This document shows positions 5,983 to 43,394 of a DNA stretch of 64,000 nucleotides, one piece after another; position 1 is the first letter of the stretch, and the number at the start of each line of letters is the position of its first letter. The notes under the pieces are model-generated. The model was not told where the DNA came from. It saw nothing but the letters and a program-made list of their open reading frames with translations, and did not search any database. The translations under genes were made by a program, and so were the position numbers. Location of the stretch: positions 1 through 64,000 of the forward strand of contig JAIXWF010000019.1 of assembly GCA_027482185.1 (NCBI GenBank), in the 5' to 3' direction. The stretch is from Opitutaceae bacterium. Its GTDB lineage: Bacteria; Verrucomicrobiota; Verrucomicrobiia; Opitutales; Opitutaceae.

Positions 5983-5984
5983 CG

Positions 5985-8937: not shown

Positions 8938-8953
8938 GTAACTGTAAAGTTAC
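8938..8953. promoter_or_regulatory. Palindromic operator candidate, site 1: GTAACT-GTAA-AGTTAC
   Basis: Perfect 6+6 arms, N4 spacer, in the divergent TonB1/amidohydrolase intergenic region. Confidence 0.75.
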
Positions 8954-9033
8954 CAAAACGAGCGCGCGTCAAACCGAAAGGCCCTCGGCCGCGAATTCCC
9001 TCCGGCGAGACGAGAACGGATTTGCCAACATCG

Positions 9034-9049
9034 GTAACCGACACGTTAC
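9034..9049. promoter_or_regulatory. Palindromic operator candidate, site 2: GTAACC-GACA-CGTTAC
   Basis: GTAAC-N6-GTTAC core intact; 11 bp upstream of ATG at 9061. Confidence 0.7.
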
Positions 9050-9060
9050 TCCGGCCCGGC

Positions 9061-9927
9061 ATGGACCGCCGTTCGTTTCTTACCTTCGCCGCGGGCTCCG
9101 CGGGCCTCGCCGCGACCGGCGGGGCCGCCGCGGCACCGGCAGCGGGCGACGGCTTCGTCGACACCAACGTCCACCTCGGCTCCTGGGCCGTGCGGCGCGG
9201 CTGGGCGGATGCGCCCGCGGAACTCGCGGCGCGGCTGCGGCGCCACGGCGTGACGGCGGCGTGGACCGGCCACTTCGACGCCGTGCTGCACAGCGACCTC
9301 GGCGGCGCCAACGCCCGGCTCGCGGCCGCCTGCGCGGGGAGCGGCGGCCTGCTCGTGCCGTTCGGCACCGTGAACCCGACCTTCCCGGATTGGGCGGACG
9401 ACCTGCGGCGCTGCCGGGAAGTCCACGGCATGCCCGGGATCCGGCTCTATCCCAACTACCACGGCTACGGACTCGACGATCCGCGTTTCGCCGCCCTGCT
9501 CGCGCGGGCCGCGGCGAGCCGGCTGCTGGTGCAGATTGCGGTTTTGCTCGAGGATGAACGCTCGCAGAACCCCGCTCTCGTCGCGGCGCCGGTGAACCTC
9601 GCTCCGTTGCCCGAAGTGCTCGCGCAAACCCCGGGCGCCCGCGTCATGCTGCTCAACAGCGGCGGCCGCGTGCTCAACGCGCATACGCCATTGCTGCAGC
9701 GGTTGATCCAGGCGGGCTGCGGATTCGAGATCGCGACCCTAGAAGGCGCGGGCGGACTTGGGGCGCTGCTGCAACGCAGCCCCGGGGCCAAGGTCGCCTT
9801 CGGTTCGCACGCGCCGTGGTTCTATTTCGAAGCGGCGCTGTTGAAATTGCAGGAATCGGAACTGACCGCTGCGCAACTCGCCGCCGTCCGCCACGGGCAC
9901 GCAACCGCCCTCCTCTCCCCCGCATGA
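9061..9927 (+). CDS. Tat-signal amidohydrolase-family protein, HxH-less small paralogue
   Basis: MDRRSFLTFAAGSAGLAATGG Tat-type signal; FVDTNVHLGSWAVRR; homologous to 22451-23224 (VPFGTVNPTF...GIRLYPNYHGYGLD). Confidence 0.75.
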   Translation: MDRRSFLTFAAGSAGLAATGGAAAAPAAGDGFVDTNVHLGSWAVRRGWADAPAELAARLRRHGVTAAWTGHFDAVLHSDLGGANARLAAACAGSGGLLVPFGTVNPTFPDWADDLRRCREVHGMPGIRLYPNYHGYGLDDPRFAALLARAAASRLLVQIAVLLEDERSQNPALVAAPVNLAPLPEVLAQTPGARVMLLNSGGRVLNAHTPLLQRLIQAGCGFEIATLEGAGGLGALLQRSPGAKVAFGSHAPWFYFEAALLKLQESELTAAQLAAVRHGHATALLSPA

Positions 9928-10841
9928 ACCGCCGCACTTTCTGCACCACCCTCGCGACCGGCGCGGCCCTGCCCGCGATCGCCGCGGCGCGTCCGGCCGA
10001 CGTGCCCGCGACGGCATCGGCCTGGGGCAACGCCGACGACCTGCGCAACCTCGGCATCTGGGACGTACACATCCACGTGGGCAGTCCCGGGGCCACGCCG
10101 GAGAAACGCATGGAAACGTTGCTGCGCAGCGCCGATCGGCTCGGCGTGGAACGGTTGTGCACGATGATGAGCCCGCCGTGGCAGTACGAGCCGACGCCGG
10201 AGCAATTCCGCCGGAGCAACGACGACGTGCTCGCGATCGTGAAGTCGTTTCCCGAACGGGCCTTCGGTTTCGTCTACCTCAATCCGCGGCACCTCAAAGA
10301 AAGCCTCGCGGAACTCGAGCGCTGCGTCGCCGACGGCCCGATGGTCGGCATCAAGCTTTGGGTCGGCACCCGGGCCAACGCGCCCGAGCTCGATCCGATC
10401 GTGCGGCGCGCGGCGGAGCTCAAGGCGTTGATTCTGCAGCACACGTGGATCAAGCAGCGCGGCAAGGGCAACCTGCCGCACGAATCGACGCCGATGGAAC
10501 TGGCGGAATTGTCCGCGCGGCATCCCGGTTTTCCGATGGTCTGCGGGCATACGGGCGGCGGCGATTGGGCCCTCGGTATCCGCGCCATCCGCGACCGGCC
10601 CGAGTTGCACGCCGACCTCGGCGGCGGCGATCCGGTCTACGGCGAAGTCGAAATGGCGGTCCGCGAACTCGGCGCGAGCCGCGTGCTTTACGGCAGCGAC
10701 GCCAACGGCCGCAGTTTCGCTTCCCAATTGGGCCGCGTGCTCGGCGCGGACATTTCCGTCGCGGACAAGAAATTGATCCTGCGGGAAAATCTCCGCCGGC
10801 TGCTGTTGCCCGCGCTGACGCGCAAGGGGATCAGGGCGTGA
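9924..10841 (+). CDS. Tat-signal amidohydrolase (amidohydrolase_2-like)
   Basis: MNRRTFCTTLATGAALPAIAA Tat-type signal; IWDVHIHVG (HxH); VCGHTGGGDW and GSDAN motifs; ATGA overlap with upstream gene. Confidence 0.82.
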   Translation: MNRRTFCTTLATGAALPAIAAARPADVPATASAWGNADDLRNLGIWDVHIHVGSPGATPEKRMETLLRSADRLGVERLCTMMSPPWQYEPTPEQFRRSNDDVLAIVKSFPERAFGFVYLNPRHLKESLAELERCVADGPMVGIKLWVGTRANAPELDPIVRRAAELKALILQHTWIKQRGKGNLPHESTPMELAELSARHPGFPMVCGHTGGGDWALGIRAIRDRPELHADLGGGDPVYGEVEMAVRELGASRVLYGSDANGRSFASQLGRVLGADISVADKKLILRENLRRLLLPALTRKGIRA

Positions 10842-10853
10842 AGGACGCGGGCC

Positions 10854-10888
10854 GTTGAAAGTTGAAAGGTGAAGGTTGAAAGCACGGC
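10854..10888. repeat. Dispersed intergenic repeat, copy A (GTTGAAAGTTGAAAGGTGAAGGTTGAAAGC)
   Basis: Near-tandem GTTGAAA units; related to other intergenic copies. Confidence 0.5.
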
Positions 10889-10978
10889 AAACCGACCGGA
10901 GGCCGCCGGGGCAATTCCCCGGAACCAAGGTTCGGCGCTGGCAATGCGGGCCGGAGGCGGCCTAGGTTTTTTCACCCC

Positions 10979-12433
10979 ATGAAGACTCCCCTGCTGCTGC
11001 TTGGACTTTTGCTGGCCGGTGCCGGCCTGCGCGCCGCCGACCGTTTGCCCAACGTCGTGCTCATTTTCACCGACGACCAAGGCTACGGCGACGTCGGCGT
11101 CTTCGGCGCCAAAGGCTACCGCACGCCGCACCTCGACAGCCTGGCCCGCGACGGCGTCAAGTTCACCAACTTCCACGTCGCCCAAGCCGTCTGCTCCGCC
11201 TCGCGCGCGGCGCTGCTCACCGGCTGCTACCCGAACCGCATCGGCATCCATGGCGCTCTCGGGCCGGGCGCCAACCACGGCCTGCATGCCGAGGAAACGA
11301 CGCTGGCGGAAATGCTCCGCGCCCGCGGCTATGCGACGGGCATGGCGGGCAAATGGCACCTCGGGCACCGCGAACCGTTTTTGCCCAACCGGCAGGGCTT
11401 CGACGAATCCTTCGGCCTCCCCTACTCCAACGACATGTGGCCCAACCACCCCGAGGCCAAGGCGGGCACGTACCCCAAATTGCCGCTTTACGAAGACGGG
11501 CGCGTGATCGACGACGAGATTACTCCGGTTGAAATGGACGAATTGACGACGCGGTACACCGAGCGTGCGACGGCCTTTATCCGGAAAAACAAAGACCGGC
11601 CCTTCTTCTTCTACCTCGCGCACGCGATGCCGCATGTGCCGCTTGCGGTGAGCGCGAAACACCGCGGCAAATCCGGCGCCGGCCTTTACGGCGACGTGAT
11701 CATGGAGATCGATTGGTCCGTCGGCGAAGTCCTGCGCACGCTCCGCGAGCAGGGCCTGGAGCGGGATACGCTTGTGATCTTCACCAGCGACAACGGCCCG
11801 TGGCTGAGCTACGGCGACCACGCCGGCAGCGCGGGCCCGTTGCGCGAAGGCAAGGGCACGGCGTGGGAAGGCGGCACCCGCGTGCCTTGCCTGATGCGTT
11901 GGCCGGGCAAGCTGCCGGCCGGGGCGGTGAACAATGCGTTTCTCATGACGATCGACCTGCTGCCGACGATCGGGACCGCGGTCGGGGCCGCGCTGCCCGC
12001 GCGCCCGATCGACGGCCGCGACGTTTGGCCGCTGCTGGCGGGCCGCCCGGGCGCGACCAATCCGCACGCCGGCTACGGCCTGTGGTACGCGCAGAACGAA
12101 TTGCAGGCGGTGGTGAGCGGCGACGGCCGTTGGAAACTCATCTTGCCGCATCGCTACCGCACGCTGGCCGGACGCGCCAGCGGCAAGGACGGCATTCCGG
12201 CGAAATACGAAAACGGCCGCCTGACCGAGCCGGCGCTGTATCAGCTCTCCGAGGACATCGGGGAAACGAAGGACGTCGCCGCGGCCCACCCGGAGATCGT
12301 GCGGCAGCTGCTCGCGTTTGCCGAAACTTGCCGCGCCGACCTTGGCGATTCCCTCACGCAACGCACCGGCGCCGGGGCCCGCGAACCCGGGCGGATCGCC
12401 GAAGCCGGCAAGGCGCAGGGCAAGAAGAAGTGA
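10979..12433 (+). CDS. Sulfatase (arylsulfatase family)
   Basis: 484 aa, signal peptide, NVVLIFTDDQGYGDVG; formylglycine-type motif CSASRAALLTG. Confidence 0.9.
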   Translation: MKTPLLLLGLLLAGAGLRAADRLPNVVLIFTDDQGYGDVGVFGAKGYRTPHLDSLARDGVKFTNFHVAQAVCSASRAALLTGCYPNRIGIHGALGPGANHGLHAEETTLAEMLRARGYATGMAGKWHLGHREPFLPNRQGFDESFGLPYSNDMWPNHPEAKAGTYPKLPLYEDGRVIDDEITPVEMDELTTRYTERATAFIRKNKDRPFFFYLAHAMPHVPLAVSAKHRGKSGAGLYGDVIMEIDWSVGEVLRTLREQGLERDTLVIFTSDNGPWLSYGDHAGSAGPLREGKGTAWEGGTRVPCLMRWPGKLPAGAVNNAFLMTIDLLPTIGTAVGAALPARPIDGRDVWPLLAGRPGATNPHAGYGLWYAQNELQAVVSGDGRWKLILPHRYRTLAGRASGKDGIPAKYENGRLTEPALYQLSEDIGETKDVAAAHPEIVRQLLAFAETCRADLGDSLTQRTGAGAREPGRIAEAGKAQGKKK

Positions 12434-20900: not shown

Positions 20901-20916
20901 GTAACTTTCCAGTTAC
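20901..20916. promoter_or_regulatory. Palindromic operator candidate, site 3: GTAACT-TTCC-AGTTAC
   Basis: Perfect 6+6 arms, N4 spacer, in the divergent TonB2/DegT1 region. Confidence 0.77.
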
Positions 20917-20973: not shown

Positions 20974-22290
20974 ATGCCCGCGCCCCTGTCCCGCCGCCGC
21001 TTCCTCGGTCGCGCCGCCTCCGCCGGCGCCGGCCTCTGTCTCACCGCCGCCGCGGCCGAGAAGGCCGCTTCCGTCGCTCCCGCACCGGCCGTCCCCGCGG
21101 CGCCCGTGCCCGACTGGCCGCGCTGGACCGGCTCCGACGAACGCGCGCTGCTCGACGTGCTGCGCTCCGGCCGCTGGGGCCGCACCAGCGGCGGCGCCCG
21201 CGTGAAGGCATTCGAGACGGCGTTCGCCGCCCGCATGCAGGCCAAGCACTGCGTCGCCACGTCGTCCGGCACGACCGCGCTGCTCACCGCGCTCGGCGCG
21301 CTCGGCATCGGCCCGGGGGACGAAGTGATCATCCCGCCGTACACGTTTGTCGCGACGTTCAACGCCGTGACCGCGAGCTTTGCGCTCCCCGTCTTCGTCG
21401 ACAGCGACGCCGCGACTTTCCAGATCGACGCGACCAAGGTCGCCGCCGCGATCACGCCCGCGACGCGCCTGCTGCTGCCGGTTCACATCGCCGGTTCGCC
21501 GTGCGACCTCGACCGCCTGGCCGCGCTCGCCGCCGAGCGGAAGATCACGCTGCTCGAGGACGCCTGCCAGGCGCCGCTCGCGGAGTGGCGGGGGCGCCCC
21601 GTCGGCACGCGCGGCATCGGCGGCTGCTTCAGTTTCCAGGCCAGCAAGAACCTCACCGCCGGCGAGGGCGGCGCCGTGCTGACGGACGACCAGGCCTTCG
21701 CGGATGCGTGCTACGATTTCCACACGCCGGGCAACGCCAAGCGCTCGCCGAGCTCGGGCCGCGGCGCCAACTTCCGGCTCACCGAATTCCAGGCCGCGCT
21801 GCTCGTTTCCCAGATGGAAACCCTCGAGGCGCAGGCCAAGCTGCGCGACGCCAACGCCGCCCTGCTCACCGCCGGACTCGCGCAGATTCCCGGGATCAAG
21901 CCCGCCGGCCTCACGCCCGGCACGACCCGGAGCGGCTGGCACCTCTACATGTTCCGCTACGACGCGGCGCAGTTCGCCGGCTTGCCGCGGGCGAAATTCA
22001 TCGCCGCGCTCGCGAAGGCCGGGGTTGCCGCCAGCTCGGGCTACACCGCGCTCAACACCGGCGCCCACGTCAAGGCGCTCGCCGCCAATCCCCACTACCG
22101 CCGCATCTACGGCGCGGATACGATGGCGCGCTGGGCCGAGCGCAACGCCTGCCCCGTCAACGACCGGCTCGTCGAGGAAGCCGTGTGGTTCGGCCAGACC
22201 AAGCTGCTCGGTTCCCGCGCGGATACCGAGAAAATCGTCGCCGCCGTGGCAGATGTCCGGCGCCGGGCCGGCGATCTGGCGAAGGCCTGA
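20974..22290 (+). CDS. DegT/DnrJ/EryC1/StrS-type PLP enzyme with Tat signal (DegT1)
   Basis: MPAPLSRRRFLGRAASAGAGLCLTAAAA; GDEVIIPPYTFVATFNAV; PLP-lysine motif FSFQASKNLTAGEGGAV. Confidence 0.9.
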   Translation: MPAPLSRRRFLGRAASAGAGLCLTAAAAEKAASVAPAPAVPAAPVPDWPRWTGSDERALLDVLRSGRWGRTSGGARVKAFETAFAARMQAKHCVATSSGTTALLTALGALGIGPGDEVIIPPYTFVATFNAVTASFALPVFVDSDAATFQIDATKVAAAITPATRLLLPVHIAGSPCDLDRLAALAAERKITLLEDACQAPLAEWRGRPVGTRGIGGCFSFQASKNLTAGEGGAVLTDDQAFADACYDFHTPGNAKRSPSSGRGANFRLTEFQAALLVSQMETLEAQAKLRDANAALLTAGLAQIPGIKPAGLTPGTTRSGWHLYMFRYDAAQFAGLPRAKFIAALAKAGVAASSGYTALNTGAHVKALAANPHYRRIYGADTMARWAERNACPVNDRLVEEAVWFGQTKLLGSRADTEKIVAAVADVRRRAGDLAKA

Positions 22291-29657: not shown

Positions 29658-30614
29658 ATGTCTCCGCTTTCCGCCGTCCCACCGCCCCGCTGGTTCGATT
29701 TCCAGGTCAACGGCTTCGCCGGCGTCGATTTCCAGGCCGAGGACCTGACCTTGGCCCAACTCGAGCACGCCGTCGCCGGCCTGCACCGCCACGGCACCGC
29801 CGCCATCCTCGCGACGCTGATCACCGACACGATCGATTCGCTCTGCCGCAAGCTCGTCTGTTTCGAGGAGCTGCGCGCCCGTTCGCCGCTCGTCGCGGCC
29901 GCCATCCCCGGCTACCACATCGAAGGCCCGTGGCTGAGTCCGGAGCCCGGTTACCGCGGCGCCCATCCCGCCGAGCCGATGCACGCTCCGTCGGTCGACG
30001 AATTCCGTCTCCTGCAGGCGGCGGCGGGCGGCCGCATCCGGCTGATCACGCTCGCCCCCGAATGGCCGGGCAGTCCGGAATGCATCGCCGCCATCGTCCG
30101 CGCCGGCGTCCAGGTTTCCCTCGGCCACACCAACGCCTCGGAAACGCAGATCGACGAGGCGATCCGCGCCGGCGCGCGCTTCTGCACCCATCTCGGCAAC
30201 GGGGCCCCGCTGCAGCTGCACCGCCACGACAACATCATCCAGCGCCTGCTTGCCCGCGACGAACTGACCGCCTGCTTCATCCCCGACGGCGTCCACCTGC
30301 CGCCCTTCGTGCTGCGCAATTTCGTCCGCGCCAAGCCGCGCGGCAAAATTCTCTTCACCACCGATTGCATGGCCGGCGCCGGCGCGGGTCCGGGCCGCTA
30401 CCGCATCGGCCGGCTCGACATCGAGGTCGGCGCCGACGGCATCGCGCGCCAGCCCGGCGGCCAGGGCTTCGCCGGCTCCACCCTCACGCCCGACGCCGGC
30501 GTGCTACGCTGCCAGGAGTATCTCGGCTTCACGCCGGAAACCGCCGCGGCACTTTGGTCGACATTGCCCGCCGCCGCCTTCGGCCTCAACTTGCCCGACT
30601 TTATCGCGCCATGA
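29658..30614 (+). CDS. N-acetylglucosamine-6-phosphate deacetylase-like amidohydrolase (divergent NagA)
   Basis: 318 aa; FDFQVNGFAGVDF, GYHIEGPWLSPE, LGHTNAS, FIPDGVHLPP, FTTDCMAGAGAG. Confidence 0.82.
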   Translation: MSPLSAVPPPRWFDFQVNGFAGVDFQAEDLTLAQLEHAVAGLHRHGTAAILATLITDTIDSLCRKLVCFEELRARSPLVAAAIPGYHIEGPWLSPEPGYRGAHPAEPMHAPSVDEFRLLQAAAGGRIRLITLAPEWPGSPECIAAIVRAGVQVSLGHTNASETQIDEAIRAGARFCTHLGNGAPLQLHRHDNIIQRLLARDELTACFIPDGVHLPPFVLRNFVRAKPRGKILFTTDCMAGAGAGPGRYRIGRLDIEVGADGIARQPGGQGFAGSTLTPDAGVLRCQEYLGFTPETAAALWSTLPAAAFGLNLPDFIAP

Positions 30615-31420
30615 CCCTTGCGACTCCGCACTACCTCACCGCCGGCCGCCTCGCCGTCGAGATCCACGCCGCCCGCCCCCAACTTGGCCGTGCCGCCGCC
30701 TTGGCCGCCGCCGCCTACCTCCACGGCGTGATCGGCGAGCGCGGCCACGCCCGCGTGATCTTCGCCTGTGCGCCTTCGCAGAACGAATTTCTCTCCGAAC
30801 TGATCGCGCTGTCCGCGCAACCCGGCCCGGCCTCGGTCGATTGGTCGAAGGTCACGGCGTTCCACATGGACGACTACGTCGGCCTCACCGCCGCGCACGC
30901 CCAGAGCTTCCGCCACTACCTGCAGGAACACTTCCTGCGCCACGTCCGCATCGGCCGCTTCCATCCGCTGCCCGCTGAGCTGCCCGATACCGCCGCGGTC
31001 TGCACCGCCTACGGCGCGCTGCTGGACGCCCAGCCGATCGACCTCATTTGCATGGGCATCGGCGAGAACGGCCACATCGCCTTCAACGATCCGCCGGTCG
31101 CCGACTTCGACGACCCTCAGCTGGTCAAACTCGTGGAACTCGACGACGCCTGCCGCCACCAGCAGGTGGCCGACGGTTGTTTCCCGACTTTCGCGGACGT
31201 GCCCCGCCACGCGTTTTCCCTCACCGTCCCGGTGTTTCGCCGCGCGCGGAAACTCAGCATCCATGTGCCCGGACCGCGCAAGGCGGATGCCGTGAAGGCG
31301 ACGATCGAGGACCGCATTTCCACCGCCTGCCCGGCCTCGATTTTGCGGCTGCATCCCGACGCCACGCTCTACGTGGACGCCGCTGCCGCGGGCAAACTCG
31401 CCGCCGGCACGTTGCGCTGA
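30611..31420 (+). CDS. Glucosamine-6-phosphate deaminase/isomerase-like protein (divergent NagB)
   Basis: 269 aa; VTAFHMDDYVGL, CMGIGENGHIAFNDPPVADF; ATGA overlap with the NagA-like gene. Confidence 0.85.
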   Translation: MTLATPHYLTAGRLAVEIHAARPQLGRAAALAAAAYLHGVIGERGHARVIFACAPSQNEFLSELIALSAQPGPASVDWSKVTAFHMDDYVGLTAAHAQSFRHYLQEHFLRHVRIGRFHPLPAELPDTAAVCTAYGALLDAQPIDLICMGIGENGHIAFNDPPVADFDDPQLVKLVELDDACRHQQVADGCFPTFADVPRHAFSLTVPVFRRARKLSIHVPGPRKADAVKATIEDRISTACPASILRLHPDATLYVDAAAAGKLAAGTLR

Positions 31421-32335: not shown

Positions 32336-33469
32336 TCAGGCGCCGTCCAGCAACGCGCGAAAAGCCGCCGTCCCCGCCGCCAGTTCGCGCGCGAGGATGA
32401 ACTCGTCGCGCGTATGGGCTTGGGCAATACTGCCTGGCCCGAAGGCCACGGCGGGAATGCCCGCGCCGGCGAAGATGTTCGCGTCGCAGAACCAATCCGC
32501 CGCCGCCCAGCCGCGCCCGACCCGCCGCACGGCCCGGGCCCACGGATCCGTCCGGGCCGTGACGAAGGCCGGTCCGGTCCGGTGCACCGCCACCTTGGCC
32601 GCCGGCACAAGGGTCCGCACCGCCGCGCGCAGCCGCCGCAGCACCTCGTCGCCGGGCAACCCCGGATGCACGCGGATATCGAGCCCAAGCCGGCAGCGGT
32701 CCGGCACCAGATTGAGTTCCCCGCCGCCCTGCACGACCCCGAGGTTGAGGCTGCTGCGCCCGAGCACGGGGTGCCGCTGCGCCGCCAGCCATGGACCGAA
32801 TTCATCTTTCAGATACGCCAGCAGCGGGAGCGCCGCATAGACGGCGTTGCGGCCGCGCTCCGGCTTGGCGCCGTGCGCCGCTTTGCCGGGCACATCGATC
32901 CACACCCGCAGGATGCCCTTGGCTGCATGCACGACCCGCAGGTCCGTCGGCTCGAGCGCCACCGCGAAATCCGCCGTGAAGCCGCCTTGCACCAGCGCCT
33001 GCGCGCCGAGGCTGCCCTGCTCCTCGCCGGCCGTCGCCGCCACGATCCACCGGATGTCGCCCCGTCGCGCCGCGGCGGACCCGGTCCAGTGCGCAAACGC
33101 CGCCAGCAGCGCCGCCGTCGGGCCCTTCGTGTCGCAGGCGCCGCGGCCGTGGAGCCGGTCGCCCCGCGCGGTGAGCGCAAAGGGCGGCACCGTCATGCCC
33201 CGCACGCCCACCGTGTCGAGGTGCGGCGCAAACACCACGGTCGCCCGCGCCTTCCGCGCCGGCGCGAACACGCCGAGCACCGTCGGCCGGCCGGGGGCGA
33301 TCTCCTGGCGCGAGGTGTCGGCCCCGAGCCGGCGCAGCATCGCCTCCATCCATGCGGCCGCCGCCGCCTCGCCCGGTACCGTGCCGCCGGGATCGGCCTC
33401 CGGGTGCACGCTCGGGATCGCGACCAGCTCGCGCAGGATTTTTCGGGCATCGACACGGACGGATTTCAT
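32336..33469 (-). CDS. M20-family peptidase/deacylase
   Basis: Start MKSVRVDARKILRELVAIPSVHPE; FAPHLDTVG, GRGACDTKGPTAALL, AATAGEEQG; 377 aa. Confidence 0.88.
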   Translation of the reverse strand: MKSVRVDARKILRELVAIPSVHPEADPGGTVPGEAAAAAWMEAMLRRLGADTSRQEIAPGRPTVLGVFAPARKARATVVFAPHLDTVGVRGMTVPPFALTARGDRLHGRGACDTKGPTAALLAAFAHWTGSAAARRGDIRWIVAATAGEEQGSLGAQALVQGGFTADFAVALEPTDLRVVHAAKGILRVWIDVPGKAAHGAKPERGRNAVYAALPLLAYLKDEFGPWLAAQRHPVLGRSSLNLGVVQGGGELNLVPDRCRLGLDIRVHPGLPGDEVLRRLRAAVRTLVPAAKVAVHRTGPAFVTARTDPWARAVRRVGRGWAAADWFCDANIFAGAGIPAVAFGPGSIAQAHTRDEFILARELAAGTAAFRALLDGA

Positions 33470-33505: not shown

Positions 33506-33521
33506 GTAACCACGCGGTTAC
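33506..33521. promoter_or_regulatory. Palindromic operator candidate, site 6: GTAACC-ACGC-GGTTAC
   Basis: Perfect 6+6 arms, between divergent M20(-TetR) and oxidoreductase genes. Confidence 0.78.
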
Positions 33522-33577: not shown

Positions 33578-34657
33578 ATGTCCTCCAAAATCAGAATTCT
33601 CGTTGTCGGCTGCGGCCACATGGGCACCTCGCACGCCCGCGCCTACCACGCCATGGCCGACGCCTTCGAAATCGTCGGGCTCGTCGCCCGCGGCGCCGCC
33701 TCCCGGCAGAAGCTCAACGCCGAGTTCGGCGGCCGCTACGCCGAGTTCGCCGACTACACCGACGCCCTCGCCCGCACGAAACCCGACGCCGTCTGCATCA
33801 GCACGTATCCGGACACCCATGCCGCCTACGCCACCGCCGCGCTCGAGGCCGGCGCGCACGTGTTTCTCGAGAAACCCGTCGCCGACAACATCGCCGATTG
33901 CGAACGTGTCCTCGGTCTCGCCCGCCGCCTGAACCGCAAGCTCGTCGTCGGCTACATCCTCCACGTCCATCCGTCCTGGAAGAAGTTCACCGAGCTCGCG
34001 CAGACCCTCGGTAAGCCGCTCGTCATGCGCATGAACCTCAACCAGCAGAGCTCCGGGCCCAACTGGGCCACGCACAAACAACTGCTGCGCTCCACCTCGC
34101 CGATCGTCGACTGCGGCGTCCACTACGTCGACGTCATGTGCCGCATGACCGGATCGCGTCCGGTCAGCGTCAACGGCATCGGCGCCCGCCTCACCGACGA
34201 GATCGCGGCGAATCAGATCAACTACGGCCATCTTCAGGTCACATTCGCCGACGGCTCCGTCGGCTGGTACGAAGCCGGCTGGGGTCCGATGATGAGCGAG
34301 ACGGCGTTCTTCGTGAAGGACGTCATCGGCCCGAAGGGCTGCGTCAGCATCGTCGCCAAGAACGCCGCCAGCGCCGGCAATTCCGCCGACGTCGATTCGC
34401 ATTCGAAAACGGAATCCCTGCGCCTGCACCACTCGGCCGTCGGCCCCGACGGCAAGTTCGCCCGTTCCGACGAGATCATCGACGTCACGGACGAGCCCAA
34501 CCACGACGAATTGTGCCGGCGGGAGCAGGACGTTTTCCTCCGCGCCATCCGCGAGAACACCGATCTCACCGCGCATTGGCAGAGCGCCATCGACAGCCTC
34601 CGGATCGTGCTCGCCGCCGATCAATCGTTCCGCGAAGGCCGGACGATCAAACTGTAA
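33578..34657 (+). CDS. Gfo/Idh/MocA-family oxidoreductase
   Basis: MSSKIRILVVGCGHMGTSHARAYHAM; HVFLEKPVADN; 359 aa. Confidence 0.9.
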   Translation: MSSKIRILVVGCGHMGTSHARAYHAMADAFEIVGLVARGAASRQKLNAEFGGRYAEFADYTDALARTKPDAVCISTYPDTHAAYATAALEAGAHVFLEKPVADNIADCERVLGLARRLNRKLVVGYILHVHPSWKKFTELAQTLGKPLVMRMNLNQQSSGPNWATHKQLLRSTSPIVDCGVHYVDVMCRMTGSRPVSVNGIGARLTDEIAANQINYGHLQVTFADGSVGWYEAGWGPMMSETAFFVKDVIGPKGCVSIVAKNAASAGNSADVDSHSKTESLRLHHSAVGPDGKFARSDEIIDVTDEPNHDELCRREQDVFLRAIRENTDLTAHWQSAIDSLRIVLAADQSFREGRTIKL

Positions 34658-34715
34658 TCGCCCCCAACCCGCGGGAGCGGCAACCGCGCCGCTTCCGCGC
34701 GCCTTTCGCCCCGCC

Positions 34716-36074
34716 ATGCCCCCTGTCCCGCTCCGCCGGTTTCTTGCCCTAGTCCTGCTCTGCGCCGTTTCGCTGTCTGCCGCGGTGACCGACCGGCCGA
34801 ACGTCCTCGTCATTATCACCGACGATCACGGCTACGGCGATGTGTCGACGTACGGCCCGAGCGACGTGCAAACCCCGCACCTCGACCGGCTGGCCGCGGA
34901 GGGCATGCTCTTCACGCGGATGCGGGCCAACGCGACCGTCTGCTCGCCCACCCGCGCCGCCTTGCTCACCGGCCGCTATCCGGACCGCGTCGGCGTCCCG
35001 GGCGTGATCCGCACGCAACGCCCCAATTCTTGGGGCTACCTCGATCCGCGCGTCCCCACCCTCGCCGGTCTGCTTCGCGCCGCCGGCTACCACACCGCGC
35101 ACATCGGCAAATGGCACCTCGGGCTCGAGTCGCCGAACGTCCCCAACGAACGCGGCTTCGATTACTTCCACGGTTTCCTCGGCGACATGATGGACAGCTA
35201 CACGACGCACCTGCGCGAGGGGCAAAACTACATGCGCCGCAACCGCGAGCCGATCGATCCCGCGGGCCACGCCACGGATCTCTTCACCGACTGGACCCTC
35301 GATTTTCTCGATTCCCGCGCCAAGTCGCCCCAGCCGTTCTTCCTCTACCTCGCCTACAACGCGCCGCATTTCCCGATCGAGCCGCCGGCCGAGTGGCACG
35401 AAAAGGTGAAAACCCGCGCCCCCGGGCTCGACCCCAAGCGCGCCGCGAACGTCGCCCTGATCGAGCACCTCGACGCGGGCATCGGCCGCATCCTCGAGCG
35501 TCTCGAGGCCCGCGGTCTCGCCCGCAAGACCATCGTGTTCTTCACCGCCGACAACGGCGGCTCCCTGCCCCATGCGCAAAGCAACCGCCCTTGGCGCGAC
35601 GGCAAACAGAGCCACTACGACGGCGGCCTGCGCGTGCCGTTCTTCGTCCGCTGGCCCGGCGTCGTCGCCGCCGGCGCCAAGTCCGACTACGCCGGCCTCA
35701 CTTTCGACATCTTTGCCACCGCCCTAGAGGCCGCCGGTTTGAATCAATCGCCGGGCACCGACGCCGTCAGCCTCCTCCCTGTCCTGAAGACCGGCAAACC
35801 CGCGAACCCGGCGCCGCGCGAACTGTATTTTGTGCGGCGCGAAGGCGGACCGGCCTACGGCGGCAAATCCTACGAAGCGATCATCCGCGGTGACTGGAAG
35901 CTGCTGCAGAATTCGCCGTACGGCCCGCTCGAACTCTACCACCTCGGCCGGGATCCGGGCGAAACGGACAACCGCTTCGCCAAGGAACCCGCGGTCGCGC
36001 GCGAACTTCAGGCCGCGCTCCGCCAACATATCCAGCGCGGCGGCGCCGTGCCGTGGCAGCCACCGGCGCGTTGA
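34716..36074 (+). CDS. Sulfatase
   Basis: 452 aa, signal peptide, NVLVIITDDHGYGDVS; VCSPTRAALLTGRYPDRVG; HIGKWHLG. Confidence 0.92.
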   Translation: MPPVPLRRFLALVLLCAVSLSAAVTDRPNVLVIITDDHGYGDVSTYGPSDVQTPHLDRLAAEGMLFTRMRANATVCSPTRAALLTGRYPDRVGVPGVIRTQRPNSWGYLDPRVPTLAGLLRAAGYHTAHIGKWHLGLESPNVPNERGFDYFHGFLGDMMDSYTTHLREGQNYMRRNREPIDPAGHATDLFTDWTLDFLDSRAKSPQPFFLYLAYNAPHFPIEPPAEWHEKVKTRAPGLDPKRAANVALIEHLDAGIGRILERLEARGLARKTIVFFTADNGGSLPHAQSNRPWRDGKQSHYDGGLRVPFFVRWPGVVAAGAKSDYAGLTFDIFATALEAAGLNQSPGTDAVSLLPVLKTGKPANPAPRELYFVRREGGPAYGGKSYEAIIRGDWKLLQNSPYGPLELYHLGRDPGETDNRFAKEPAVARELQAALRQHIQRGGAVPWQPPAR

Positions 36075-36134: not shown

Positions 36135-37313
36135 TCACTTCACCGGCACCGCGATGAGATCGATCATCGCCGTGCGGCCGGGGCGACCCAAGCCCGGCAC
36201 CTGCAACGCCGACGCCGCCGGCGCCCGCGTCGGATCGAAATACACGCCGCGGATGTCGCCGAGGACGGTCCGCGAATCGGCCGCCGCGAGATAGTACGTC
36301 GCCTTCACGAGATTGCGGTAGCTGCTGCCCGTCTCGAAGAGCAGCGAGCCGAGGCGCTCGAAAATCGTCTTCATCTGTTCGCGCGCGGTTCCCGTTTCGC
36401 CGGCGTCGACGCCGGCGACAAAGATCAACGGCGTGCCCGCGGCCACGTGGCAGACTTTGCTGTAGCGCGGCGACGGCGTCAGCCACGGCAACGGCAGGTA
36501 AGCGACGCGGTCGCTCGCCGGGGCCGGTCGCGCGCCCGCCGCGACGACCATCTCGATCTCAGTAAACAACGTGCTCTCCCACGCCATCAGCACCGCGGGC
36601 GGAACGGCCCCGGGCGCGAAGCTCGCCGCGATTTCCCGCTGCGCCGCCGCGTGGTCCGAAAACGGCGTGAGAAACGCCTTCACCTGCACGACATCCGCCG
36701 GCTCGACGCCGAGGTGCACGAGCGTGCGCATCAATCCCGCCATCGTCGCCCGGACCGCCGTCGCGACATCGGTGCCGCGCTCCGCCTGACCCGAGATGAA
36801 AATCTTGCCGCCCGCCGGCAGCACGGCCGCGGCGGATTCGCGCACGGTAACCCGCGGACCCGCCGGTGCCGTCGCGGCCACGGCTTCGAAGGCCACGCGC
36901 GCACCCGGGGCCGCCAACGGCGTCTTCACCAACGTGAAGGCCGCCGGCTGCGCCGCCCCCGCGGCCGCGAGCGCCGCCTCGACGGGACCGACCGCCGCAT
37001 CGTCCACCACGTACGCGTTGAGCCGCACGATCTGCGCCGCGCTGCTGCCGGCGCGGCCCAGCAGTCGGACCAGTTCGGCCAAGGCCGCGTCGGCTTCGGC
37101 GCGGTCGCCGCCTCCGGGCCGCGGCGCCGTGATCTGGCCCGTGAAAACCAAGGGCACGTCGTCCACGCGCACCGCCAGCGCCTGGCCGGGAGCACCGGGG
37201 CGCGCCCAACGGCGGATCGGTTCGGCGGCAGCGGCGGCGGCGGCAAACGGCACAGCCGACATGGCGAGGAACGCGGCGAATAGATACGACCGCCGGGAAA
37301 GGAGGCGCCTCAT
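36135..37313 (-). CDS. Exported RidA-family protein with three tandem RidA-like domains
   Basis: 392 aa; signal peptide MRRLLSRRSYLFAAFLAMSAVPFAAA; three successive RidA-like stretches (PLVFTGQI...VAFEAVA; KIFISGQA...TEIEMVVA; PLIFVAGV...AMIDLIAV). Confidence 0.75.
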   Translation of the reverse strand: MRRLLSRRSYLFAAFLAMSAVPFAAAAAAAEPIRRWARPGAPGQALAVRVDDVPLVFTGQITAPRPGGGDRAEADAALAELVRLLGRAGSSAAQIVRLNAYVVDDAAVGPVEAALAAAGAAQPAAFTLVKTPLAAPGARVAFEAVAATAPAGPRVTVRESAAAVLPAGGKIFISGQAERGTDVATAVRATMAGLMRTLVHLGVEPADVVQVKAFLTPFSDHAAAQREIAASFAPGAVPPAVLMAWESTLFTEIEMVVAAGARPAPASDRVAYLPLPWLTPSPRYSKVCHVAAGTPLIFVAGVDAGETGTAREQMKTIFERLGSLLFETGSSYRNLVKATYYLAAADSRTVLGDIRGVYFDPTRAPAASALQVPGLGRPGRTAMIDLIAVPVK

Positions 37314-37322
37314 CTTGCCGGA

Positions 37323-40310
37323 TCAGAAGCGGCCGCGGAAGCCGGCGGAGAAGCCGACGCCCTGGTTGGTGCGGAAGAACTTGAGGCCGTTGAGGGCGAC
37401 GTCGGTGCGCGGCGGCTCGTCGGTCAGGTTGTTCACGTCGAGGAACACATCGTAGCGGCGGTTGATCGTGTACTGCAGCTTCAGGTCGAGCATGAAGCGC
37501 TCCTCGTTGTAGACCTCGATGCCGCCGACCGTGCTCTTGTATTTTTCGGCGGCCCAATTCCCGAGGATGCGCGCGTCGAGGCCGCGGTAGCGCAAATTGA
37601 TCCCGGCATTGCCGCTGCGCGGCGCCAGATTCGCGAGCTTCGTCGTGGTCGCCACGGCGCCGAAATCGCCCTCGGCCTCGAGATACGTGAAATTGGCGAA
37701 CGAGCCGAGGCCCTTCCAGATGCCGGGCAGGAAACTGTACTGCTGCTGGTAGCTCAGCTCGATGCCGCGGATCCGCGCGGTCCCGATGTTCTGGGTCGTC
37801 GACAAGGTGTAGCCCGCGTAGAGTCCGTTGCCGTCGATCCCGGACGGCGAAACGGTGGAGGAAAACGTGCGGAAGTAATCCGTGATGTCTTTCTGGAAGG
37901 CCCCGACACTGATCAGACCGACGGGTTCGAAGTAGCGTTCGACGCTGACTTCGAAGTTGTCGGAAAGGTAGGGCTTCAGGTCGGGATTGCCCATGCTCAC
38001 CGTGTTGTTCTCCAGATTTTCCGTCAGCGTCGGGATCAGATTGGCGATCGGCGGACGGGAGATCGATTTGTTGTAGCTGGCCCGGACCAGGAGATTCGGA
38101 GCCGGCTCGTAGACGAAGTGCAGGCCCGGGAAGAATTTCCGGTAGTCGCCCTCGGAGGTGTTGAGCCGCACGAACGATCGCTGCGCGCGGGCAAGGTTCG
38201 CGGCCACCGTCGCGGGATCGAAGCTGGTGCCGCCGACGCTGTTGCCGCCCCACGAAGCCGTGGTGTTGCGCGCCCAAGCCCGGCCCTCGGTCGCGGTGTC
38301 TTCGGCGCGCACGCCGCCGAGAACGCGCAGGCGGCCGAATTTCACCGACGCCTGCACATAGCCGGCGGTGATGGTTTCCTGGAAACGGGCGCGGCCGTTG
38401 TTTGCGGTGGCATAGCTGTTGTACGCATCCGCCGCGGTCTGCTTCCAGTAGGCGGTCGGCGCGCCCTGCGGATTCGTCATGAAGGGAAACGGGCCGTACA
38501 GATCCTTGCTCTGACGGTAACTGAGATCCGCATACGGCTTCATCGTGTCGTCGGCCGTGCCGGCGACGCCGTCGGCGCCCGCGAACGTGTAGGTCGCAAA
38601 ATCGGTCCAGGGGTTGCGCGTGTCCTCGGCCCACTTGGCGCCGAACTTCAGCACGATCGGCGCGGCGGTATCGAAGCGCTTTGCGACGTCGGCGCGCAGG
38701 CTGTAGAGGTCGTTCTTCGCCTTGTACGACTGCTTTTGCATCGTGCTCATCGTGTAGTTGGCGGCGTCGTAGATCGAAGGGCCGGCCGTCTGGCGGAACG
38801 CCGGGTACCACGGATCGCGGCCGCGCCGGTCGATCTCGAAGCCGATGCCGCCGGGAATGCGCGCCTGGGCGCGGATCCAGCCCGGATAGGAGATGTTGGC
38901 GTGCGAGTAATTCGCCCGCAGCTGCACGGTCGCGGTGCGTTCGAACAGTTTGAAATCGGTGCCGCCGCTGAGGGAGAAGTTGCGCGAGTTCTTGGTGAAC
39001 TCGGGCGTCGATTCCGTGACCGCAACCGACGCCGCGTGCGGCAGCAGGGTCGAGAATTCGTAGGTGCTGCCGGGCGCGAAGTTCGCCGCCGTCGCCGCCG
39101 GGTTGCCGATGCCGGGACGGTAATACTCCTGGTACTGGTCGTTGGTGTTGTAGGCGCCGCGGAAAAACACGAAGGCATCCGGGCTCAACTTGTAGTCGAG
39201 GCTCAGGCCGGCGTTGTGCGCCTTGGCCTCGTAGCCGATGTCGCCGGAACCGAAGATGCGCGTCAACGGCGTCGTGTTCGGGTTCAGGTAGGTCTGGCTG
39301 AAATTGTAGAGCACGCCGCCCGGACCGGCCTCGTCCTGCGTGGTGGCGGAGATGCGGCGGTTGACGTTGAAGGCGACGCCGAGATTGCGGCGGCCGCCGA
39401 GCACGTCGAAGACATCGGAGTACGCGACGCTGAGCAGGTCGAGATTGTCGGGCCGGTCCTTGAACGGACTCTCGTCCGTCTGCCGCAGGCGCCACATCAC
39501 GCCGCCGGAAACCGTGATGCGCCGGCCCGGGGCGTCGAAGGCCCGGCGGGAAACGAGGTTCACGAAACCGGCCACGGCGTTGGCGTCCTGCTCCGGCTGC
39601 GGCGCCTTGATCAGCTCGACGGTCTCCAGGTTGCCCGTGCCAAGCTGCTCGATCTGGTAGTCGCGGCTGCCGGAGGTACCGGTCGAGGTCGCGACCCGCT
39701 CGCCGTCGACCATGAGGGAGGAAAAGCCGGGACCCATGCCGCGCACGTAGAGCGTGCGCACTTCGCTGCCGACGACATCGGTCGAGATGCCGGGCAGGCG
39801 CTGGATCAATTCGCCGGGATTGGCCGCCGGGTTGCCGAAGGTGTCGGTCGCCGCGACCCACTTGGGATTCTCGGATTGGCGCTGGGCCTGGATGGCGCGG
39901 GCGCTGCCCTCGCGCACGCCGGACACCGCGACGGCCTCCATCTTGTAGATGCCGGTGGTGAGCTCGAAGTTCTTCGTCACCGTCTGGCCCGCGGCAACGG
40001 TCACGGGCACCTTGAGCCGGTCGAGTCCGGAATAGCTCACCAGCAGCACGTGCGCGCCTTCCGGCAAGGCCAGGCGGTAGCTGCCGTCGCGCTCGGCGAC
40101 GGCCGTCAGCTTCGAGCCCTCGACCTCGATGGCGGCGCCGGCGAGCAGGTCGCCGGTGGCTTGGTTGGTGACGACCCCGGTCACGGTGCCGGTGCGGGCC
40201 GGCTGCGCGGCGAGGACCGCGGCACCCAGCCAGGCCGCAAAAACGGCGAAGAACAGACGGACGCGGCCGGAACACCCGGCGGCGGCAAGCGGAGCAAGCG
40301 ACAGTTTCAT
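37323..40310 (-). CDS. TonB-dependent receptor (TonB4)
   Basis: Start MKLSLAPLAAAGCSGRVRL; plug VAATDTFGNPAANPGELIQRLPGISTDVVGSEVRTLYVRGMG; C-terminal SAGFRGRF. Confidence 0.92.
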   Translation of the reverse strand: MKLSLAPLAAAGCSGRVRLFFAVFAAWLGAAVLAAQPARTGTVTGVVTNQATGDLLAGAAIEVEGSKLTAVAERDGSYRLALPEGAHVLLVSYSGLDRLKVPVTVAAGQTVTKNFELTTGIYKMEAVAVSGVREGSARAIQAQRQSENPKWVAATDTFGNPAANPGELIQRLPGISTDVVGSEVRTLYVRGMGPGFSSLMVDGERVATSTGTSGSRDYQIEQLGTGNLETVELIKAPQPEQDANAVAGFVNLVSRRAFDAPGRRITVSGGVMWRLRQTDESPFKDRPDNLDLLSVAYSDVFDVLGGRRNLGVAFNVNRRISATTQDEAGPGGVLYNFSQTYLNPNTTPLTRIFGSGDIGYEAKAHNAGLSLDYKLSPDAFVFFRGAYNTNDQYQEYYRPGIGNPAATAANFAPGSTYEFSTLLPHAASVAVTESTPEFTKNSRNFSLSGGTDFKLFERTATVQLRANYSHANISYPGWIRAQARIPGGIGFEIDRRGRDPWYPAFRQTAGPSIYDAANYTMSTMQKQSYKAKNDLYSLRADVAKRFDTAAPIVLKFGAKWAEDTRNPWTDFATYTFAGADGVAGTADDTMKPYADLSYRQSKDLYGPFPFMTNPQGAPTAYWKQTAADAYNSYATANNGRARFQETITAGYVQASVKFGRLRVLGGVRAEDTATEGRAWARNTTASWGGNSVGGTSFDPATVAANLARAQRSFVRLNTSEGDYRKFFPGLHFVYEPAPNLLVRASYNKSISRPPIANLIPTLTENLENNTVSMGNPDLKPYLSDNFEVSVERYFEPVGLISVGAFQKDITDYFRTFSSTVSPSGIDGNGLYAGYTLSTTQNIGTARIRGIELSYQQQYSFLPGIWKGLGSFANFTYLEAEGDFGAVATTTKLANLAPRSGNAGINLRYRGLDARILGNWAAEKYKSTVGGIEVYNEERFMLDLKLQYTINRRYDVFLDVNNLTDEPPRTDVALNGLKFFRTNQGVGFSAGFRGRF

Positions 40311-40377: not shown

Positions 40378-40393
40378 GTAACCGTTAGGTTAC
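40378..40393. promoter_or_regulatory. Palindromic operator candidate, site 7: GTAACC-GTTA-GGTTAC
   Basis: Perfect 6+6 arms upstream of TonB4. Confidence 0.78.
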
Positions 40394-40475: not shown

Positions 40476-40491
40476 GTAACCTACCGGTTAC
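40476..40491. promoter_or_regulatory. Palindromic operator candidate, site 8: GTAACC-TACC-GGTTAC
   Basis: Perfect 6+6 arms; 7 bp upstream of ATG at 40499. Confidence 0.78.
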
Positions 40492-40498: not shown

Positions 40499-41902
40499 AT
40501 GCGCCTTCCGCCCGCCCCCGCGTGCGGCCGCCGGTGGATCCGGTGGGCCGCGGTCCTGGTTGCCCTGCTGCCGCTTGTCCGCCTCGCGGCCGCCCCCGCC
40601 CCGGGCTGGCGCGCCGGCCTCGCCCGCGAGGCCGTGACCCCGCCGGCCGGACTTTGGATGACCGGCTACGCCGTCCGCACCCGCCCGGCCGACGGCAAGG
40701 CCCAGGACCTTTGGGTCAAGGCGCTCGCTCTCGCCGATCCCGCCGGCAACCGCGGCGTGCTGCTGACCGCGGATCTGTGCGCCATCGGGCGGGAGCACAC
40801 CGACGCCGTCGCCGCCGAACTGCAGCGCCGCTACGGCCTGCCCCGCAGCGCCGTGATGACGAACGTCTCCCACACGCATTGCTCCCCCGCCCTCGCCGGC
40901 AGCCTCGGGCCGATGCGCCCGATTCCCGCCGCCGACGCCGCCAAGACCGCCGACTACACCCGCGTCCTCGTCCGCCGCATGGTCGACGTCGCCGCCGCCG
41001 CCCTCGAGCGCCTCGCGCCCGCGGACCTCGCGTGGAGCGAGGACGAGGCGACCTTCGGCATCAACCGGCGCGAGAACGCGGAGAAAGACGTCCCGGCCCT
41101 CCGCGCCGCCGGCAAACTGAAGGGCCCGTCCGACCCCCGCGTGCCGCTCCTTGCCGTCCGCGACCGCCAAGGTGCGCTGCTCGGACTCCTCGTTTCCTAC
41201 GCCTGCCACAACACGACCCTCGCCCTCAACGAATGGCACGGCGACTACGCGGGCAGCGCCCAGGCCGAACTCGAACGCCGCCATCCCGGCGCCACCGTGA
41301 TGTTCGCTTCCGGCTGCGGCGCCGACATCAACCCGAACCCGCGGCGCGAACTCGCGCACGTCGAGCAACACGGCCGCGATCTCGCCGATGCCGCCGACCG
41401 CGCCTTGGCCAAGCCGTTGCGTCCGATTGTCGGCGGCTTCGCCTCCGCCTGGGCCGACGTGCCGCTGACGTTTTCCCGGCAGCCGAGCGAGGAAGAGATC
41501 CGCACCGCGCGGGAAAAGGACCAGCCCAACAAAGAAATGCACCAAGCTTGGGCCGACCTTGTGAGCGAGCGGCAACAGAAACTCGGCGAGGCCGCGATCA
41601 ACTATGCCTATCCCGTCCAGACTTGGGCCCTCGGCCAGGTCACTTGGGTCGCGCTCGGCGGCGAGGTCGTCGTCGACTACGCCCTCCGCCTGCGCCGCGA
41701 ACTCGGCGACAATGCCTGGGTCTTCGGCTATTCCAACGACCTCATGTCCTACATTCCGAGCGAACGCGTGCTCAAGGAAGGCCGCTACGAGGGCGCGACC
41801 TCGATGATTCCCTATGGCAAACCCGGCCCGTGGTCGCCCGGGCTCGAGGACAAGATCGTGCAGCAGGTGCACGTCCTCGCCGCGCAGGTCCGCCGTCCCT
41901 GA
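40499..41902 (+). CDS. Neutral/alkaline non-lysosomal ceramidase-like secreted protein
   Basis: 467 aa, signal peptide, GLAREAVTPPAGLWMTGYAVR, TNVSHTHCSPAL, FASGCGADINPNPR. Confidence 0.82.
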   Translation: MRLPPAPACGRRWIRWAAVLVALLPLVRLAAAPAPGWRAGLAREAVTPPAGLWMTGYAVRTRPADGKAQDLWVKALALADPAGNRGVLLTADLCAIGREHTDAVAAELQRRYGLPRSAVMTNVSHTHCSPALAGSLGPMRPIPAADAAKTADYTRVLVRRMVDVAAAALERLAPADLAWSEDEATFGINRRENAEKDVPALRAAGKLKGPSDPRVPLLAVRDRQGALLGLLVSYACHNTTLALNEWHGDYAGSAQAELERRHPGATVMFASGCGADINPNPRRELAHVEQHGRDLADAADRALAKPLRPIVGGFASAWADVPLTFSRQPSEEEIRTAREKDQPNKEMHQAWADLVSERQQKLGEAAINYAYPVQTWALGQVTWVALGGEVVVDYALRLRRELGDNAWVFGYSNDLMSYIPSERVLKEGRYEGATSMIPYGKPGPWSPGLEDKIVQQVHVLAAQVRRP

Positions 41903-41948
41903 GCGCCGCGGGCCGGCGTGTAGCCGCGAGCGCGGCCGCAATAATGGG

Positions 41949-41996
41949 CACTGAGCTTACAGCCGTCCGCTCTCAGCTTTCAGCTTCCGCTCAGAC
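41949..41996. repeat. Dispersed intergenic repeat, copy E (short)
   Basis: CACTGAGCTTACAGCCGTCCGCTCTCAGCTTTCAGCTT; convergent junction. Confidence 0.45.
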
Positions 41997-43337
41997 CGCG
42001 AAGTGGCGGGCAACCTTTTGCACCGCCGCGGCGGTCTCCCGCATCAACGTTTCGTCCATCGATTCGTTGAGCACGACGCTCACACCCGTACCGAGAATCG
42101 CCTCGGCTTCCGGACAGGCCACGCGCGTGTAGTCCATTGCGGTCAGGCCCATTTCCTTGATCAGCCAGCGGCCGGCGAAGAAGCCGTGCCGTTGGAAGAA
42201 CGGCAGTTTGTAGATCGGCACCGGGATGTAGCCGGCGCTGCAGCCCACGCCCTCCGCCCGCAACGCGGCGACGAAATCGGCCCGGTTGCAACGCAGCTTC
42301 GCCAAATCGAGGCGGAAGTAGAAAAACCAAAACGTGCTCCGGTCGCCGGCCCGCACCGCGGGCGCGATCACGCCCGGCGCGCCGGCCAGGCCCTCGATGA
42401 GCGTGCGGCCCAAGGCCCAGCGTTTCGCCGCAATGCCTTCGAGCCGCTCGAGCTGCACGGAGCCAAATGCCGCCTGCAATTCCGTCATGCGGTAGTTCGT
42501 CGCGAGCACGTCCGTCCGGTCCCACGTGTAGCCGGGCGCGGTGCGGTCGTTGCCCTTGTCGGCAAACTTGAGCAGCGCCGGCCCGATGCGCGGATCGCTC
42601 GAAGCCGCGACACCGCCGTCGCCGGCGCCGACGTGTTTCGAATTCATCAGCGAGAAACAGGCGACATGCCCGACGGTCCCGACCGGCCGGCCCGCCGACT
42701 GCGCGCCCCAGGCCTGCGCGCAATCCTCGATCAGGACCAACTTGTGCCGGTCCGCGAGCGCCCGCAGCGCCGTCAGATCGCAGGGCGTGCCCGCGAGATG
42801 CACGGCGACGATCGCCTTGGTCCGCGGCGTGATCGCGCGCTCCACCGCCGCCGGCTCGAGATTGTAGGTGGCGGCCCCCAAGTCGGCGAACACGGGCACG
42901 CCTTGCTGGAAGAGAATTCCGGAGACCGTGCCGAGATCGGTGATCGGCGTCGTGATGACTTCGTCGCCCGGACCGATGCCGGCGGCCGCCACGGCGATGT
43001 GCACGGCGGCGGTGCCGGAGGAGCACGTCGCGACGTGCGTCGCCGGGCAATGCTTGCGGAATTGTTCCGCAAACCGCGCCGTCTGCTGGTTCACGCCGCG
43101 GCCCTGCCAATAGAACAACGAGGCCTGCGCCACCGCGGCCTCGACTTGCCGGCGCTCACGTTCGTCCCAGCGCACCCATTTCGCGGGCTTGGTCTGCACG
43201 GCTTTCGGGCCGCCCGCCTGGGCCAACGCGGCCGGGGCCGCGGGCTCGGCGCCGCGGAGGAGGCCGGGCACCTGCGTCGCGAGCAGGGCGGCGGAGTTCG
43301 CTTGCAGGAAACGGCGGCGGGAAGCGGAACGCGGCAT
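41991..43337 (-). CDS. DegT/DnrJ/EryC1/StrS-type PLP enzyme with Tat signal (DegT2)
   Basis: MPRSASRRRFLQANSAALLATQVPG; GPGDEVITTPITDLGTV; PLP-lysine motif CFSLMNSKHVGAGDGG. Confidence 0.9.
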   Translation of the reverse strand: MPRSASRRRFLQANSAALLATQVPGLLRGAEPAAPAALAQAGGPKAVQTKPAKWVRWDERERRQVEAAVAQASLFYWQGRGVNQQTARFAEQFRKHCPATHVATCSSGTAAVHIAVAAAGIGPGDEVITTPITDLGTVSGILFQQGVPVFADLGAATYNLEPAAVERAITPRTKAIVAVHLAGTPCDLTALRALADRHKLVLIEDCAQAWGAQSAGRPVGTVGHVACFSLMNSKHVGAGDGGVAASSDPRIGPALLKFADKGNDRTAPGYTWDRTDVLATNYRMTELQAAFGSVQLERLEGIAAKRWALGRTLIEGLAGAPGVIAPAVRAGDRSTFWFFYFRLDLAKLRCNRADFVAALRAEGVGCSAGYIPVPIYKLPFFQRHGFFAGRWLIKEMGLTAMDYTRVACPEAEAILGTGVSVVLNESMDETLMRETAAAVQKVARHFAV

Positions 43338-43378
43338 GGGCGAAACGGGGTTGGGACACCTGCACCGGCCGGCGTTTA

Positions 43379-43394
43379 GTAACCGGTTGGTACA
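43379..43394. promoter_or_regulatory. Degenerate operator candidate, site 9: GTAACC-GGTT-GGTACA
   Basis: Intact half-site upstream of DegT2; right arm looks shortened by one base (GGT-AC). Confidence 0.45.

Follow-up and report, generated by a model that had tools for sequence, protein, structure and literature searches.

We examined if a 16-bp palindrome, which recurs between the genes of a 64,000-nucleotide stretch of Opitutaceae DNA (the window), is the operator of the TetR-family regulator encoded in its midst, and if one such protein could govern the gene groups scattered around it. The original prediction had listed seven copies of GTAACY-N4-RGTTAC, all intergenic, and had expected well under one per 64 kb by chance from an assumed G+C content of about 68%. 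All seven were found where it had placed them, each between predicted genes and 4 to 102 bp from a start codon (Table 1), and the counted G+C content is 68.3%. Every one matches GTAAC-N6-GTTAC exactly, and permitting one mismatch added no site to these seven; six match the stricter GTAACY-N4-RGTTAC, whereas the site at 9034 (GTAACCGACACGTTAC) fails the inner R, such that the Y-N4-R palindrome stands for six of the seven and the remaining one is of the GTAAC-N6-GTTAC form only. Dinucleotide shuffles of the window gave a mean of 0.28 GTAAC-N6-GTTAC sites at up to one mismatch (maximum 3) and 0 sites of the stricter form, in agreement with the low chance expectation.

These counts bear upon a very improbable explanation, namely that the palindromes are not operators but chance occurrences, dispersed repeats, or RNA hairpins or terminators. 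The arms could pair as a short RNA hairpin, and two other genome copies, GTAAC[AG]GGGCTGTTAC, are intergenic and seemingly outside the regulon. The shuffles nevertheless speak against chance; the flanks, at no more than 0.17 bit for each position, do not look like those of a dispersed repeat; the sites precede the starts of divergent genes and differ in their spacers; and the surroundings of sites 8938 and 9034 yielded no terminator.

Genes were mapped with a self-trained gene finder, with starts as predicted, and 30 proteins were compared with Pfam. By contiguity, the units behind the exact sites hold 22 genes, or 26 when the two degenerate sites are included. In divergent layouts, TonB1-DUF7133a-Ceram1 faces AmidoA-AmidoB-Sulf1 across sites 8938 and 9034, Unk509-GCE-DUF7133b-TonB2 faces DegT1 across 20901, AmidoC-AmidoD faces TonB3 across 24210, TetR-M20 faces GFO-Sulf2 across 33506, and YjgF3-TonB4 faces Ceram2 across 40378 and 40476; the one-sided layouts are Epim-DHDPS-NagA-NagB behind 27511 and DegT2 behind 43379. 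Where two sites share one divergent region they lie about 100 bp apart, one by each start.

Table 1. Candidate operators and the gene units next to them in the window (distances are to predicted start codons).
Feature	Coordinates	Strand	Remarks
Operator GTAACTGTAAAGTTAC	8938..8953		lies 31 bp ahead of TonB receptor 1 (5985-8906 -)
Operator GTAACCGACACGTTAC	9034..9049		arms exact, inner R unmatched; lies 11 bp ahead of amidohydrolase A (9061 +)
Operator GTAACTTTCCAGTTAC	20901..20916		102 bp from TonB receptor 2 on one side, 57 bp from DegT1 on the other
Operator-like GTAACCGACCGGGTAA, degenerate, weak	24210..24225		between amidohydrolase D and TonB receptor 3
Operator GTAACTGTCCGGTTAC	27511..27526		4 bp before predicted start of Epimerase-DHDPS-NagA-NagB operon
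Operator GTAACCACGCGGTTAC	33506..33521		36 bp from M20-TetR on one side, 56 bp from the ATG of GFO oxidoreductase (33578) on the other
Operator GTAACCGTTAGGTTAC	40378..40393		67 bp upstream of TonB receptor 4; compared loci L080, L092
Operator GTAACCTACCGGTTAC	40476..40491		7 bp upstream of ceramidase-like 2
Operator-like GTAACCGGTTGGTACA, plausibly decayed	43379..43394		upstream of DegT2
Putative operon TonB1 - DUF7133/cytochrome c - ceramidase-like 1	1574..8906	-	gene prediction, Pfam
Amidohydrolase A, amidohydrolase B, sulfatase 1	9061..12433	+	
Putative operon TonB2 - DUF7133b - glucuronyl-esterase-like - unknown 509 aa	12446..20798	-	
DegT aminotransferase 1	20974..22290	+	N-terminal twin-arginine-like leader (by eye)
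Amidohydrolases C and D	22451..24147	-	behind weak site 24210
TonB receptor 3	24341..27361	+	behind weak site 24210
Epim, NAD-dependent epimerase/dehydratase family	27531..28589	+	first gene of conserved core operon
DHDPS/N-acetylneuraminate-lyase superfamily enzyme	28603..29649	+	invariant Lys179, Tyr151
NagA-like deacetylase	29658..30614	+	
NagB-like sugar-phosphate deaminase/isomerase family	30611..31420	+	
TetR-family regulator, 224 aa	31581..32255	-	TetR_N + TetR_C_29; helix NKRMVYHYF; proposed repressor
M20 family deacylase/peptidase (ArgE/DapE-like)	32336..33469	-	same unit as TetR
GFO/IDH/MocA oxidoreductase + sulfatase 2	33578..36074	+	GFO start corrected from 33620 to 33578
TonB4 - YjgF/RidA-domain protein	36135..40310	-	
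Neutral/alkaline ceramidase-like 2	40499..41902	+	
DegT aminotransferase 2	41991..43337	-	behind plausibly decayed site 43379

The copies formerly called degenerate are present but weak, with two mismatches at 24210 and three at 43379 (the latter being absent from a scan allowing two), and both were downgraded. Site 43379 is plausibly a decayed real site, because the relative G013 (L092:7040) has a one-mismatch counterpart, GTAACCGGTCGGTTAA, before the same DegT gene. Among the exact sites, 27511 is the most widely conserved; the 16-mer at 20901 recurs identically upstream of DegT1 in G025 and G013 (loci L091:7860 and L177), and 33506, in an autoregulatory position, is kept in G013 and L100.

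The regulon reaches beyond the window. Seventeen copies of GTAAC-N6-GTTAC occur in the 6.43-Mb genome, seven of them inside the window, which makes up 1% of it; the reversed control pattern occurs once genome-wide. The strict form has ten copies, six in the window and four remote, and three of the remote ones precede, respectively, a sulfatase/GFO pair, a ceramidase-like gene and a DUF7133 gene, families as in the window; the fourth precedes a DUF1501-like/cytochrome-type pair (judged by eye). Genes of unrelated kinds follow several of the non-strict copies (GTAACG..., GTAACA...), which probably fall outside the regulon; one non-strict copy, at C20:514645, precedes a TonB receptor. When checked, the motif did not prove equally common within coding regions or before unrelated genes.

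Only one TetR gene lies in the locus, in the M20-TetR unit headed by site 33506. Its product scores 64.6 bits for TetR_N (PF00440; cut-off 24) and 97 bits for the ligand-binding C-terminal domain TetR_C_29 (PF17938; cut-off 26.2); the predicted structure is all-helical (mean pLDDT 83), with TetR folds as the best structural matches. The nearest solved fold is that of RutR, the TetR-family repressor of pyrimidine catabolism in E. coli, whose operator is also a 16-bp palindrome of the same geometry, with a different half-site, and whose target operon likewise includes a YjgF/RidA-family protein. Membership in RutR was rejected (equivalog score 51.1 bits against an NCBIfam cut-off of 368); identity in the fold alignment is about 22%, and no rut operon or rut genes were found among the predicted targets, where YjgF3 alone is not diagnostic of RutR. 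FadR (Bacillus), RefZ and BetI share the TetR_N HTH and overall TetR architecture and give detectable NCBIfam matches, but these lie far under the curated cut-offs (61.5/200, 68.3/180 and 54.9/201, respectively), and the regulon here is without fatty-acid, sporulation or choline genes.

The recognition helix NKRMVYHY[FY] is nearly invariant down to about 30-45% overall identity, and 16 orthologues with 42-100% identity all share its N-K-R-M-V-Y-H-Y segment unchanged. When the TetR alignment was run against a collection covering 84,980 species, it gave 80 loci, 58 with the helix and 22 TetRs without it, the 58 being chosen by the recognition helix and independently of the motif. A site with up to one mismatch was present at 49 of the 58 helix loci vs 1 of the 22 others (Fisher 2.7e-11, kinship ignored), and an exact site at 34 of the 58 vs none of the 22; nine helix-bearing loci had no site within the DNA examined around tetR. 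The helix loci hold 77 sites where 4-10 were expected, 71 of them intergenic and 73 within 350 bp of a start. A site falls within 400 bp upstream of tetR at 26 of the 58, including loci from Planctomycetota, Kiritimatiellales, Desulfofundulus (Bacillota) and Deltaproteobacteria; the neighbouring genes differ there, and therefore the operator is separated from gene content and tied to the regulator.

Co-occurrence across whole genomes, several of which are incomplete MAGs, points the same way. Among 57 relatives (own genome included), 16 carry a TetR orthologue at E<1e-50, and the motif was found in 15 of these 16 vs 4 of the 41 others (Fisher 2.6e-9, in which kinship is ignored and independence overstated); in a 388-genome sample of the phylum it was found in 14/16 TetR-bearing vs 38/372 other genomes (Fisher 1.1e-11, again ignoring kinship). 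The strict pattern missed three TetR-bearing genomes (G002, G129 and G218) because of A/T at the outer position. All three carry RTAAC-N6-GTTAY sites, placed before Epim in G002, as five sites all within 20 kb around tetR in G129, and as four on the tetR contig in G218.

It is conceivable, though quite unlikely, that the motif is bound by some other dimeric protein (a second TetR, or a GntR, LacI or MarR regulator encoded elsewhere) and that the local TetR is a passenger. Similar sites occur in G006 and G356, where no orthologue was detected (G006 has three regulon-type sites in an assembly that is 85% complete), and further regulators exist, such as an ArsR-methyltransferase at 48250 in the window. 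Against a passenger, the site follows the NKRMVYHY helix across phyla amid unrelated neighbours, directly upstream of tetR, and TetR loci lacking the helix have no exact sites. It thus appears highly probable from these sequence comparisons that the TetR at 31581-32255 represses the catabolic regulon with GTAACY-N4-RGTTAC (relaxed, RTAACY-N4-RGTTAY) as its operator. Very probably one repressor is in charge of the whole scattered scavenging programme, of about nine gene groups, because dozens of bacteria, relatives and non-relatives alike, have the operator beside this TetR gene. The original prediction of one TetR over about 25 genes is supported at 22-26 genes by the genome and locus comparisons, and further by sites that immediately precede tetR in several phyla and by the same families behind unlinked sites.

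Binding, repression, an inducer and the nutrient served are what we infer from these patterns. A TetR dimer would bind the two 6-bp arms via the near-invariant NKRMVYHYF helix, and bound dimers would most likely block initiation or early elongation, because the operators lie so near the start codons, although this geometry is provisional, as a scan around sites 8938 and 9034 found no sigma-70-like promoter; through site 33506 TetR would repress its own gene. An inducer, probably a catabolic intermediate, would release TetR from its operators, with coordinated induction of 22-26 genes in the window and of more units in the rest of the genome. This set would encode uptake across the outer membrane, hydrolases for export, transaminases and, inside the cell, an Epimerase-DHDPS-like core. 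An unlikely variant has TetR acting at the same operators as activator or dual regulator: some TetR proteins do activate, and with 20901 and 40378 placed 57-102 bp upstream of starts, activation is geometrically possible. Most sites, however, are 4-56 bp away from start codons, covering the ribosome-binding region or directly preceding it, which favours a block; repressors also typically have autoregulatory sites next to their own gene.

At unlinked sites in TetR-bearing relatives, 23 of 30 loci (counted manually) head the same gene families (DUF7133a, TonB, DegT1, Sulf1, M20, SSF-AGE, amidohydrolase and Epim units), which make up about 3% of genes in the background (12/367). Epim is the commonest first gene behind sites (29 loci), followed by the DHDPS-like gene (27 loci, never first) and then by tetR, M20, NagA, a 'DTSH' GFO protein and serine dehydratase subunits; the Epimerase-DHDPS-like operon is the best conserved of the targets. 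From 127 distinct sites the best consensus is RTAACY-N4-RGTTAY, to which spacer and flanks contribute little information.

In the DHDPS-like enzyme the Schiff-base Lys (K179) and the Tyr (Y151) are retained, and a structural model of it (pLDDT 90) finds matches in N-acetylneuraminate lyase and DHDPS. A substrate containing nitrogen is likely because of NagA/NagB, M20, RidA, DegT, amidohydrolases and sulfatases, plus serine dehydratase in relatives. Sialic acid is a lead only: the enzyme resembles NanA, in company with NagA, NagB and, in relatives, an AGE-family gene, but at the sequence level the resemblance to NanA is weak (E 0.0017), and NanK and NanE were not seen. Bacteroidota polysaccharide utilisation loci are likewise large, with TonB-dependent receptors and sulfatases; that assignment was rejected, since beside the TonB/SusC-like receptors the 30 proteins gave no Pfam match to SusD or to any glycoside hydrolase, and the regulator here is a TetR rather than of HTCS or SusR/ECF type. 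We would propose tentatively, with slightly more doubt than belief, an undescribed TetR group whose helix-operator code, NKRMVYHY[FY] to RTAACY-N4-RGTTAY, spans several phyla and is re-used for different genes. In Verrucomicrobiota this group would control an uncharacterised catabolic route, whose substrate would contain nitrogen and be partly sulfated or acylated; the Epimerase-DHDPS-like core would form its basis, joined by exported DegT transaminases and amidohydrolases but by no glycoside hydrolases.

No description of the motif, the helix peptide or a TetR regulon in Verrucomicrobia was found in the open-access literature, and the regulon is apparently undescribed, though of a known kind. 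The mycobacterial KstR-type regulons likewise have one conserved TetR-type repressor over a large catabolic regulon (PMC1995591), in a different phylum and with a different domain subfamily and pathway (lipid degradation). The NikR operator (PMC545781) was rejected as a match, its half-sites being ordered GTGTTAC-N13/14-GTAACAC, which differs in length and orientation. The regulon supplies a regulator with its operator and a set of genes from an uncharacterised pathway that are predicted to be co-regulated, and therefore the functions of DUF7133, the Tat-type DegT and the DHDPS-like and Epimerase proteins become testable as one system. Few transcription-factor regulons have, to our knowledge, been worked out in Verrucomicrobiota and Planctomycetota, and the helix and palindrome conserved across phyla offer a usable rule of TetR specificity.

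The predicted dihydrodipicolinate synthase (DHDPS)/N-acetylneuraminate lyase (NanA)-like enzyme of the window gave a Pfam score of 21.1, below the cut-off of 22.1; its family nevertheless shows no variation at the catalytic Lys and Tyr, and the modelled fold agrees with NanA/DHDPS, which points to a poorly described aldolase-type family. A Pfam scan gave no match for the 509-aa protein of the TonB2 operon. Each of the two DegT aminotransferases carries a twin-arginine-like leader at its N-terminus (SRRRFLG in one, SRRRFLQ in the other), a rare feature among PLP enzymes; their export is putative.

Coordinates of features in the window and compared genomes (G, genome; C, contig; L, extracted locus)
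Feature	Location	Position
509-aa protein	window	12446-13975
DHDPS-like enzyme	window	28603-29649
DegT aminotransferases	window	20974-22290; 41991-43337
CTCAACTCCGGTTGAG	G002:C108	L084:9230-9250
GTAAC-N6-GTTAC	G356:C4 (L213)	409190; 412269; 417613
GTAAC[AG]GGGCTGTTAC	G000:C20	113316
GTAAC[AG]GGGCTGTTAC	G000:C10	15649
GTAAC[AG]GGGCTGTTAC	G218:C1	3373048
GTAAC[AG]GGGCTGTTAC	G006:C41	1745

Three operator-like sites lie within less than 9 kb of G356, among genes unrelated to the regulon, and no TetR orthologue was detected in that genome; a similar operator may be used there by another regulator. Near-identical palindromes of the form GTAAC[AG]GGGCTGTTAC, distant from regulon genes, were seen in several genomes, possibly another operator or a terminator.

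A second TetR paralogue in G002 (56% identical) has its recognition helix changed to LSKRLPYYYF, and directly upstream lies a 16-bp palindrome that differs from the operator, a single example of possible helix-operator co-variation. At four non-PVC loci (L146, L147, L149, L150) the operator is retained next to a tetR of the NKRMVYHY helix type while the neighbouring genes differ (those of L146 and L150 look, by eye, like transport or efflux genes), which suggests that the same helix-operator pair has been re-used with other genes outside the PVC group.
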